From NCBI GenBank assembly GCA_937944105.1, contig CALDZP010000015.1, positions 1-46,964 on the forward strand: a stretch of DNA of 46,964 nt, given 5' to 3'. The translations under genes and the position numbers were made by a program. A model generated the notes under the pieces. It was given only the letters and a program-made list of their open reading frames with translations. It searched no databases and had not been told where the DNA came from. This DNA is from an uncultured Ignavibacteria bacterium (GTDB lineage: Bacteria; Bacteroidota; Ignavibacteria; Ch128b). This document shows, piece after piece, positions 3,109 through 23,925 of this stretch; positions within the stretch are counted from its first letter, which is position 1, and each line of letters starts with the position of its first letter.

Positions 3109-6100
3109 ATGAAAATTAAATTTATCGTTTTTGTTATTTTTATTTGCTTTAATTTTCTATGGGGATTTAGCTCTAAAGTTAAAAAGATGTCAAATGGATT
3201 CGAAATAAATATACACTTCCCTGAAACTGAATATCTTCTATCATATGTCAATGGATTTACAAAATATGATTTTATTTTTAATGGAGATGAAAGTAAACCA
3301 GGCTATCCAAAATTACCTTCAAGAATAATATTTGTTGCTATTCCACCTGAAGCAAAAGTAAATGTTAAATTAGTCGATAAACACACTGTCGAATATAATA
3401 ATGCACTTATAGAAATCAATCCTGAACCAATTTTCAATGATTCTTTAATTGAATATAAATCAATTGATCCCGATTTATCTATTTATCAAAATGGTTTTTA
3501 TCCTTCTAATGAAATAGAAATAATTGATTATATCTGGATTAGAGATTTTTATTGTGCAGTTATAAAAATAAATACTCACCGTTATTCATTCTTTGAAAAG
3601 AAATTATTGATAATTGACTCACTAAAGTTTCATATCACTTTCAATGAATTTAATTTAAACTATCTAAAAAACAATCAACCTTTTTCAATATTCGATGATA
3701 TTCTTAAAGATATAATAATAAACTTTGATTATGCTAAAGAATTCAGGTCATTTAATACCATTCTTACATACCAGGATACTACAGGACAATGGATAGACTA
3801 TACCAAGGAATATTTAAAGCTTGCTATACCGTCTGATAATATTTACAGAATAACTTATAACGACTTAGTTTCCTATGGTGTAAATCCTGATCAAATAAAT
3901 CCAAAAACATTTAAGTTGTTCTTCAAAGGAAAAGAACAACCAATATTTGTATCAGGCGAAGATGACAATATTTTTGATTCTGAAGATTACATAGAATTTT
4001 ATGCTGAGAAAAATTATACATATCAGGATTATCGAAGAATTGTTCAGATGGGTCAGGATTATATTCAATATCTAAACCGTTATTCTGATACAAGCATTGT
4101 GTGGTTGACATGGAACGGAAATTTTGGAAAGCGGATATCTCAACTTAATCAACATTCAATTCCTGCACTGGATACCATTGATTCACATTTAGTTAAAATA
4201 CATTTAGAGCAAGATGTAAGACTATGGTATTATGATCCTGTCACAGCAAGAGTTCAATTACCATTCTGGCAGGAGAATAAAACCTGGACATGGTTAGTTG
4301 TTGGTAACTCAGGTTCAACATCTGTGAATTTTAATGCCAGAGATTTTTTACCAAACACACCTGTAACAGTAATTGCAAGATTAATCAGTTATGCAGCAAG
4401 CGGAAATCAAAATGCTCATAAACATGCTTTAAGTCTTAACAGTACAACACCTTTAGATACTCTTGTTTATAATTACAGGCAAACAGTTAATCTAACTGGT
4501 AATTATTCTTCTTCGAGATTAGTAAATGGAAATAATATTGTCAGAATATTTGGTTTACCAACACAGGCTACATTTCATCAATCATTAATTGATTGGGTAG
4601 ATATCGATTATTATAGACAAAATGTTACTATTAATGACTCATTGAAAATTATAATCCCAGATTCTGTTACAAGAAATTTAAGAACTATAAAAATCAGTAA
4701 TGTACTTTACCCCGATAGCATTTTGATTTATAAAATTAAACCTGAATATAAAAAAATAATTAATTTTAATATTGTTGGATCATCCCCATCTACATTATTT
4801 TTTGTAGATACAGTTGGTGGTGGAGATCAATATTATATAACCAGAATTAGTAAGGTTTCTAAACCAGTATTTAAAAACAAAAAATATTTTATAAACTTAA
4901 GAAATCCATTAAATGGGGCTGATTATATTCTTATTTCAAGTAGAATTCTAAGTACTTCAGTAAATGAATACAAAAATTTTATTTCCAGTAATTATAATAT
5001 TAGAGTTGAATTAATCTATGATGATGATATTTATGATGAGTTTTCTTTTGGAATGACGGAGGCTGAAGCAATAAAATCGTTTTTAAAAGTGGCATATTCA
5101 AGTTGGACTGCTCCTAAACCATCCTTTCTCACTTTAATTGGTGATGCAAATTATGATTATAAAGATGTAGTAACTCCAGCTCCAACTCCACGAAAGAAAA
5201 ACATTGTAACATCATTTGGTAATCCAGTTAGTGATGTGTGGTATGTAATGTGGGATTCTGTAAATCTTTATTTCCCTCAAATGTTTGTTGGTAGAATACC
5301 TGCAAATAATAATGAACAGGTATCTTTATATCTTCAAAAACATCAAAAATATTTGAATCGAAGATTTGATGTCTTCAATAAATCATATCTATTTTTTAGT
5401 GGCGGTGATGCTAATAAGCCTTCGGAACTTGCACAGATTAAAGCTACAAATGATTATTTGATGTCAAATTTCATTTTAAGCAATCCACTTTTTGGAAACG
5501 CTAATCATTTTTACAAGACAATAAATCCACCAAGTAATTTTGGACCTTACTCACTTCAGTATGTTCAAAATGCCATTGATGAAGGAGGAACATTTGTTTC
5601 TTACATAGGCCATAGTGGAACAAGAACCTGGGATAATTCTATTACAGAAGTAGAGCATTTAAAGAATAAATACAACGATAGATTCCCTTTAATAACAGAT
5701 TTTGGGTGCTCGACCGGGAAATTTGCAGAGCCTGATGTGGATGCATTTGGTGAGCTATTTATCTGTCAATCACCGAATGGACAAGCGATTGCATATCTTG
5801 GAAATTCAAGCTGGGGATATTTATCAACCTCATTAAGATTTCCAAAGTATTTTTATGAAATTTTAACCCGTGATTCTTTGAAAGGTATTGGAAGAGCTCA
5901 TACTTTAGCAAAAATCAGGCAATTAAATGAAACCGGTATGGGGGATGTTAATCTTGTCTTTACTTATTGCAACTTATTACTTGGCGATCCAATTATTGGA
6001 CTAAAAATTCCTGAAAAACCAAACTTTTCTGTAAATGAAAACAATATAAAACTCTTGACGCCACAGCCAAATGATCAACTCGATTCTACAAAGTTTCAGG

Positions 6101-23441: not shown

Positions 23442-23492
23442 AATGCAAAGACTTATACCACTGTGAAAATATTTAATTCAAAATTATTTTAG

Positions 23493-23557
23493 TGAGGGCG
23501 GATGGAATCGAACCATCGACCCCTCCGACTTAAGAAGTCGGAGTGCTCTACCCCTGA
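23493..23557 (-). pseudogene. tRNA-Lys(CUU) remnant lacking its 5' end
   Basis: Read on the minus strand, this is a tRNA from the D loop (TCAGGGGTAGAGCA) to the 3' acceptor strand (CGCCCTC plus discriminator A). The anticodon stem-loop CCGAC-TTCTTAA-GTCGG gives anticodon CTT, which decodes Lys AAG. The T arm is intact (GATGG TTCGATT CCATC). The first 11 positions (5' acceptor strand, the linker pair and half of the D stem) are replaced by AT-rich sequence that cannot pair with CGCCCTC. The break coincides with the end of the GIY-YIG gene, whose stop codon is inside the D loop. It cannot fold as a normal tRNA. tRNA-Lys(UUU) next door can read both Lys codons, so loss should be tolerated. Confidence 0.75.
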
Positions 23558-23811
23558 TTTAATTTTTGAAGATAAGCAATAGCTTTTTTAGAGTTTTTGA
23601 ATTTTTTAAGTTTTAGTTCTAATTGGACAGCTTCATTTTTTGAATTACACGGATATGCTAATACTAATTCCCATGGGCCTTTAAGTTTAGTATAAACACT
23701 TCGGTTTTGATTATGTCTTTTGAGTCTATCATCTAAATTATGAGTATGGCCGATATAATATTTTCCTGAGGACAAAGATTTAATAATGTAGACGTGGAAT
23801 AAGTTATTCAT
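23548..23811 (-). CDS. Small GIY-YIG nuclease-domain protein inserted between tRNA-Lys genes
   Basis: A protein of 87 residues consisting only of a GIY-YIG domain: HVYIIKS (the GIY strand), KYYIGHT (YIG), the helix with DDRLKRHN (catalytic Arg) and EAVQLELKLKKFK (catalytic Glu helix). I chose ATG 23811, because the longer frame would start inside the T arm of the upstream tRNA. Standalone proteins of this size belong to the UPF0213/YhbQ-like group. Its last codons (Leu-Asn-Gln-Gly, then TAG) lie in the D loop of the decapitated tRNA-Lys(CUU), so gene and tRNA are fused. It begins 43 nt after the end of tRNA-Lys(UUU), with no clear ribosome site. The arrangement suggests insertion at a tRNA, possibly by the nuclease itself; that is inference. 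Confidence 0.75.
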   Translation of the reverse strand: MNNLFHVYIIKSLSSGKYYIGHTHNLDDRLKRHNQNRSVYTKLKGPWELVLAYPCNSKNEAVQLELKLKKFKNSKKAIAYLQKLNQG

Positions 23812-23853
23812 AAGTAGAGAAGTATTTGAAGAAAAGTTTTGATAAAGTTTTAG

Positions 23854-23925
23854 TGAGCGCGGATGGAATCGAACCATCGACCCTCTGCTTAAAAGGCAGA
23901 TGCTCTACCCCTGAGCTACGCGCCC
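23854..23925 (-). tRNA. tRNA-Lys (anticodon UUU)
   Basis: A complete cloverleaf on the minus strand. The acceptor pairs GGGCGCG with CGCGCTC, with one G-U pair, and discriminator A. The D arm is GCTC-AGGGGTA-GAGC. The anticodon arm is TCTGC-CTTTTAA-GCAGA with anticodon TTT. The T arm is GATGG-TTCGATT-CCATC. CCA is not encoded. From the D loop on, it is nearly identical to the neighbouring tRNA-Lys(CUU) remnant apart from the anticodon stem, and about ten bases of 3' flank (TTTTAGTGAG on the plus strand) are shared as well. This points to an old tandem duplication. Confidence 0.95.

Follow-up and report, generated by a model that had tools for sequence, protein, structure and literature searches.

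Why does a gene for a small nuclease lie between an intact tRNA gene and a piece of a tRNA gene, and from which tRNA is that piece derived? The question is raised by a locus of an uncultured Ignavibacteria bacterium (assembly GCA_937944105.1; genome G000 in our numbering), found in contig CALDZP010000015.1, positions 1 to 46,964. This whole stretch of 46,964 nucleotides is called the window, and the genome it belongs to the window genome. The parts of the locus are as follows:

23853..23925, minus strand: intact tRNA-Lys(UUU), the tRNA of the cassette (ARAGORN; Rfam RF00005, 72.9 bits; identical tRNA at the syntenic site of G002, a genome of the same genus)
23548..23811, minus strand: free-standing GIY-YIG nuclease gene, 87 amino acids (PF01541, E = 6.1e-16; invariant residues; AlphaFold prediction)
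23493..23557, minus strand: truncated, arm-swapped copy of tRNA-Lys(UUU), from nucleotide 12 to the 3′ end (alignment)
23523..23543, minus strand: replacement stem-loop CTCCGACTTCTTAAGTCGGAG, exactly at the place of the anticodon arm, nucleotides 27–43 (alignment; covariation)
23487..23492, minus strand: short repeat CTAAAA, as after the intact tRNA (sequence, alignment)

The tRNA, the nuclease gene and the tRNA fragment lie head-to-tail on the minus strand, an order that had been predicted from the letters alone (the original prediction) and that is borne out by the tRNA, Pfam and ORF calls. The ATG of the nuclease gene, at 23811, is 42 nucleotides downstream of tRNA-Lys(UUU), and its stop codon, TAG (23550–23548), lies inside the fragment: it is the TAG of the D-loop sequence GGGG-TAG, so that the tRNA supplies the stop codon, as had been noticed. 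The homology of the fragment to the intact tRNA-Lys(UUU) begins at TCAGGGGTAGAGC, where it had been placed and where alignment also places it, and extends beyond the 3′ end of the tRNA into CTAAAA. Between the tRNA and the fragment there is the GIY-YIG open reading frame alone; no tyrosine or serine recombinase was found there.

Identity of the tRNA fragment

The fragment is a partial, arm-swapped extra copy of the adjacent tRNA-Lys(UUU). With the Rfam tRNA model it (23557–23493) scores 21.6 bits, under the Rfam cut-off of 29, and it is identical to tRNA-Lys(UUU) in 57 of 65 aligned columns, all the differences except one being in the anticodon arm. There, CTCCGACTTCTTAAGTCGGAG stands in place of TCTGCCTTTTAAGCAGA and forms a 7-bp stem (CTCCGAC-TTCTTAA-GTCGGAG), which is non-canonical, having 21 nucleotides versus the canonical 17. 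In other Lys-type cassettes related to that of the window, the stem of this arm covaries, and the loop is variable and is not that of CUU. Across ten fragments of the Lys type, 97% of the stem is paired and three pairs covary, a count inflated by the shared ancestry of these related cassettes; the covariation score exceeded those of all 500 shuffles and of all versions in which the position was slid.

The original prediction had taken the fragment for a tRNA-Lys(CUU), beheaded when the nuclease gene entered a tandem pair of tRNA-Lys genes, destroying one and sparing the other. The fragment loop TTCTTAA does resemble a CUU anticodon loop, but the body and flank of the fragment match UUU (the alignment score is 90 with tRNA-Lys(UUU) versus 47 with the real tRNA-Lys(CUU)), the stem has 7 bp, relatives have other loops at the same place, and an intact tRNA-Lys(CUU) of different sequence is present on contig 78 (G000:C78:38790-38862). 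Destruction within a tandem pair is already contradicted by this evidence and has next to no probability; the fragment was rejected as a genuine tRNA-Lys(CUU) on the same grounds. No tRNA-Lys(CUU) was lost, and what had been called the destroyed tRNA is an additional copy of the spared one. Nor did the D arm hold up as the proposed target, since in the window it is merely the edge of the truncation, and the altered site in the cassettes at large is mostly the anticodon arm and sometimes the T or D arm. Thus, the original prediction is right that tRNA and nuclease belong together, but wrong on which tRNA is involved and on what was lost.

The nuclease and its genome

The window protein belongs to the GIY-YIG superfamily (PF01541), and Pfam otherwise gave one weak match, to the related T5orf172. 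Y8, Y19, G21, R29, H33, N34, E65 and K69 are invariant in our alignment of the family (A1), i.e., all catalytic residues are kept. The AlphaFold prediction has a pLDDT of 91.9, and the closest solved folds are those of UPF0213 and then of the structure-specific nuclease SLX1. The protein is a lone GIY-YIG domain of 87 amino acids, without a recognisable DNA-binding domain; a Pfam search of it found no HUH/Y1 transposase. No match was found by tblastn at 1e-5 in 50,697 phage records, nor in a search for carriage on plasmids.

In the same-genus genome G002, an identical tRNA-Lys(UUU) occupies the corresponding site next to enolase and is not followed by a nuclease gene; the earlier proposal that the gene is an insertion at a tRNA is supported by this empty site. 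No relative of the window protein was found at E<=1e-15 in two genomes of the same genus and three of the same family, and the closest relatives (58–66% identity) belong to different families of the class, a distribution indicative of horizontal acquisition of the gene. In G002, a tyrosine-recombinase-like gene, judged by eye, adjoins the same tRNA-Lys(UUU) (L067, about 3300–4287), and by this token the tRNA may also be an integration site for other elements.

The window genome has seven GIY-YIG matches: two in long open frames (547 and 609 amino acids) and five in small genes. Besides the gene in the window, one small gene directly follows tRNA-Ser(GCU), and another follows tRNA-Asp(GUC) and is itself followed by several partial copies of tRNA-Asp. 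The remaining two are at contig ends, one after the 3′ end of an Ala-like tRNA, the other followed by a 3′ piece of tRNA-Ser and then by the start of the gene again.

Linkage to tRNA genes across bacteria

GIY-YIG matches were collected with the Pfam model from 61 genomes of the class, and with alignment A1 from 148 genomes of the phylum (94 positive); a wider scan of 84,980 species gave 457 relatives, of which 80 were kept. Hundreds of relatives in many bacteria have the same design. The named set includes Bacteroidota, Ignavibacteriota, Cloacimonadota, Fidelibacterota, Acidobacteriota, Methylomirabilota, Thermodesulfobacteriota, Myxococcota, Armatimonadota and Patescibacteria-type lineages.

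Among 252 non-redundant matches (a few of these loci were fetched by tRNA or enolase search and are left out of the figures given by set), an intact tRNA was located upstream, at most 200 bp away, in 114 cases on the same strand and in none on the opposite one; downstream, the numbers were 30 and one, giving a total of 144:1. In the Pfam-drawn set, which was picked regardless of tRNAs but favours high scores, tRNA sequence was present beside 66 of the 111 genes with both flanks (on one side in 22, on both in 44), as compared with 2/38 and 1/34 control stretches taken 700–1000 bp away. It had been suggested to check whether GIY-YIG homologues abut tRNAs: they do so systematically.

In a tree of 225 domains (short domains, with many forks unresolved), one large clade of UPF0213-like proteins and their relatives is almost without a tRNA link, and nearly all others are linked; linkage requires 17 changes, versus a mean of 47.7 when shuffled. 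The isotype of the tRNA also follows the tree, with 61 changes versus 119 (minimum 108) in shuffles, or 53 versus 72.7 (minimum 65) after thinning to <60% identity. Judged from these trees, nuclease clades keep to one tRNA isotype, i.e., target specificity appears to be borne by the lineage. All relatives of the window protein with at least 58% identity and an intact tRNA in reach are at tRNA-Lys(UUU). Two others of high identity are L316 (66%), with no upstream tRNA and a Lys fragment downstream, and L341 (65%), which is cut by the contig end. At identities lower than about 55%, the tRNAs include Met, Pro, Val and further isotypes in addition to Lys.

Anatomy of the cassette

An intact tRNA lies closely upstream of 97 genes, and 84 of these also have a 3′ copy of that tRNA after the nuclease gene. 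Most copies begin at nucleotides 1–20, within the 5′ part or the D arm; they include the 3′ end and, in 48 of the 84, extend at least 20 nucleotides into similar flank. Outside the most altered arm their median identity is 0.95. This arm is the anticodon arm in 44 copies, the T arm in 27, the D arm in nine and the variable arm in four. Of the 84 fragments, 82 show an altered arm, even where the remainder is about 95% identical, and such near-universal alteration in nearly identical copies argues that the hairpin matters to the cassette. That the nuclease clade sets which arm is altered was considered and rejected as not significant, the arm type (anticodon or T) not tracking the nuclease tree significantly (P = 0.12).

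The new segments are themselves mostly hairpins. A perfect stem of at least 6 bp is present in 58 of 82, 26 of these 58 beginning with TCCCGA, and the longest stem has a mean of 6.4 versus 3.9 in shuffles. Anticodon-arm hairpins with clean junctions replace exactly nucleotides 27–43 in 14 of 19 cases, and in the main T-arm class (Asp, Gly) all eight hairpins are at one position. A common form of the replacement is TCCCGA...TCGGGA, in which pairing of the inner stem is kept despite variation: in 63/67 at pair 7 (28.6 expected), 23/33 at pair 8 (13.5) and 10/13 at pair 9 (3.9). The motif TCC(C)GA...TCG(G)GA occurs within 250 nucleotides downstream of 73 of the 168 tRNA-linked genes, versus 3 of 53 unlinked genes and 14 of 505 control windows.

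A mirror form of the cassette also exists, in which a 5′ tRNA fragment with hairpin precedes the gene and the intact tRNA follows it; it was found in 19 of the 22 cases with an intact tRNA downstream only. In both forms the tRNA copy is complete distally and truncated on the side facing the gene. At one tRNA-Gln locus (L298 in G012, 90–160), a 5′ fragment with hairpin upstream and the nuclease with a 3′ fragment downstream combine the two forms. Six loci (L301, L302, L304, L314, L319 and L320) have a second hairpin in the T loop of the fragment (GGTTC directly followed by TCCC...), from which the gain of palindromes seems to continue once the first arm has been swapped.

The TCCCGA family of palindromes has 33 sites in the window genome. 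Most of these are in a dispersed repeat that is unrelated, GTCATTGCGAG...AAGCAATC, and there too the palindromes sit at an arm position. This repeat was seen on contigs C6, C11, C44, C73, C76 and others of G000 (L353–L372); its inner arm differs among copies and is in many cases TCCCGAN6TCGGGA or a different palindrome, as though the copies had traded hairpins. Since TCCCGA hairpins occur in an unrelated repeat, the nuclease need not be what makes the hairpin or what the hairpin serves; the hairpin may be a mobile palindrome in its own right or may arise by a structure-guided reaction. The hairpin of the window was itself rejected as a high-copy dispersed REP, its exact sequence being single copy in its genome (within 3 mismatches) although related TCCCGA palindromes are dispersed. 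Directly upstream of an intact tRNA-Thr(UGU) there are tandem units of ~76 bp (G000:C33:1-260, L359; G000:C1:1-200, L358), each being the 5′ part of a tRNA with TCCCGATTTTAATCGGGA replacing the anticodon arm; the array runs into a contig break, and a nuclease gene is not seen.

Turnover of the cassettes

Of 13 congeners compared at one tRNA-Gln locus, eight have the nuclease and five (G022, G057, G189, G190 and G191) lack it or retain remnants; in G194 it is doubled, and decayed hairpin-bearing fragments lie farther out. Thus, the same site is met with and without the gene both here and at tRNA-Lys (G000 versus G002). The dN/dS of nuclease genes from the tRNA-Gln locus is 0.07–0.19 where finite, several pairs being saturated in dS, and among the seven genes in the comparison that of G193 contains an in-frame stop; these ratios indicate that the nuclease is under purifying selection at this locus. 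Three-copy tandem arrays occur with a spacing of 427 bp (L138, in G034) and 323 bp (G172); identical three-copy arrays in single-contig genomes are unlikely to be assembly artefacts.

Proposed mechanism and alternatives

We consider the cassette to be an isotype-specific, homing-like selfish element, made up of a SLX1/UPF0213-like GIY-YIG gene and a partial copy of one tRNA gene, with a probability of about 0.55; that the nuclease cuts and homes is what we infer. The nuclease would cut tRNA genes of its own isotype at the anticodon, T or D arm, and repair of the break from a cassette-bearing copy would insert the gene together with a replacement tRNA piece. The insertion would keep the tRNA intact and leave a redundant copy, the arm of which has ceased to match the target; tandem arrays would then arise by further rounds of cutting or by unequal recombination, and their distal copies would decay. 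Support for homing comes from the same-strand adjacency, the fragments of the same tRNA and their mirror form, isotype tracking, filled and empty sites, tandem copies, purifying selection and the catalytic residues. It is strained by the lone domain, by an arm type that does not track the tree, and by the TCCCGA hairpins in an unrelated repeat. Furthermore, the intact tRNA beside the gene keeps its presumed target arm unchanged (G000/G002 and genus g10), the altered arm being in the extra copy; since the functional tRNA keeps that arm, simple destruction of the site does not explain self-protection. A broader proposal, put forward tentatively and with the odds against it, is that these are minimal mobile elements shared across phyla (a SLX1-like nuclease of ~85 amino acids and a tRNA copy with a foreign hairpin), colonising tRNAs by isotype, and that the nuclease may itself swap stem for stem.

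The hairpins could instead be central: a SLX1-like nuclease may act on hairpins or cruciforms, and the foreign hairpin may be a cis-acting end or a mobile palindrome that is moved into foldable DNA, mainly tRNA genes, comparable to REP-associated transposases. This is in keeping with SLX1, a structure-specific enzyme, as the nearest solved relative after UPF0213, with the exact replacement of whole arms (nucleotides 27–43 in 14/19), with the enrichment of TCC(C)GA...TCG(G)GA at tRNA-linked genes (73/168 versus 3/53 and 14/505) and with the same palindromes at an arm position of the other dispersed repeat of G000. Yet the window hairpin is unique in its genome, many palindromes are distant from any GIY-YIG gene, and isotype tracking would be left unexplained by structure alone, so that this account is doubtful. 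Action at the level of RNA, with nuclease and pseudo-tRNA co-transcribed with the tRNA and the pseudo-tRNA serving as decoy, antitoxin, guide or processing signal for or against the nuclease, would suit the same-strand order of tRNA, gene and fragment in nearly all cases, the covariation that keeps the arm as a stem, and the altered arm in 82 of 84 fragments even with the rest about 95% identical. It is nonetheless unlikely: most fragments, having no 5′ acceptor strand, are unable to adopt a tRNA fold, it is the opposite part of the tRNA that the mirror form contains, arrays without a visible gene exist (C33), and we know of no GIY-YIG RNase or guide system of such a kind. Lastly, tRNA genes are integration sites, and their 3′ ends could be mere hot spots of integration and duplication where GIY-YIG genes happened to land and duplications decay as fragments. 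Distal copies do decay, and a tyrosine-integrase-like gene (by eye) adjoins the same tRNA in G002; but passive accumulation is very improbable given a strand bias of 144:1, an isotype that tracks the tree, arms that are specifically replaced with stems that covary, a nuclease kept under purifying selection and a sister clade of GIY-YIG genes almost without tRNA link.

Relation to known systems

Small palindromes next to an enzyme gene, in repeated copies, are known from REP/RAYT and IS200/IS605 systems, which the cassette resembles in this respect; it differs in having a GIY-YIG gene and no HUH/Y1 transposase, and in its tie to a tRNA isotype. Integrative elements that target tRNA genes carry a replacement for the 3′ part of the tRNA. 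The cassette shares with them a regenerated intact tRNA, a displaced partial tRNA on the far side and reuse of the site, but consists of one 87-amino-acid nuclease gene, with no recombinase between the repeats, and its displaced copy has a foreign arm. An archaeal case of an integrative element with tRNA fragments has been described (PMC3293823). In mitochondria of Armillaria, free-standing homing endonuclease genes occur with truncated copies of atp9 (PMC6506933), likewise an endonuclease gene near a truncated duplicate of a host gene; these are organellar, with protein-coding targets and no arm swap. With UPF0213/YhbQ-like GIY-YIG proteins and eukaryotic SLX1 the fold and catalytic residues are shared, but SLX1 is a host repair nuclease, and the unlinked sister clades that these genomes also contain are not associated with tRNAs.

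The nearest worked-out parallel is SegB of the T-even phages. SegB of phages T4/T6 is a free-standing GIY-YIG homing endonuclease in a tRNA cluster; it cuts in the tRNA region and thereby drives homologous recombination that amplifies segments of tRNA and nuclease in tandem, and the GIY-YIG/tRNA association is widespread in phages (PMC13096335). The position beside tRNA genes is common to both, and the arrays of the cassette match the tandem amplification. Differences are that the cassette is chromosomal, occurs in Bacteroidota and other phyla and has isotype-specific clades, whereas the paper on SegB reports no isotype preference and, in the text available, mentions no arm-swapped partial tRNA copy (PMC13096335); nor was a sequence relation of the window protein to phage GIY-YIG endonucleases detected (1e-5).

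The cassettes are a real and widespread class. Open-licence literature on GIY-YIG genes with tRNA fragments, Ignavibacteria and Bacteroidetes gave no description of them, which is weak evidence, and the class, apparently undescribed, looks like a selfish element that specialises in tRNA genes and has been overlooked. GIY-YIG genes of many phyla that are small and poorly annotated thereby become a testable family of selfish elements on tRNA genes, one that accounts for the tRNA pseudogenes of these genomes and for their contig breaks at repeats, and poses the question of how a nuclease lives beside an essential gene bearing its presumed target, for which the arm-swapped copies are ready-made substrates and controls.

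Two cassettes can also be close neighbours: at L108 (G041:C7), two nuclease genes, each with its own tRNA-Ser (CGA and GGA), lie in one neighbourhood on opposite strands.
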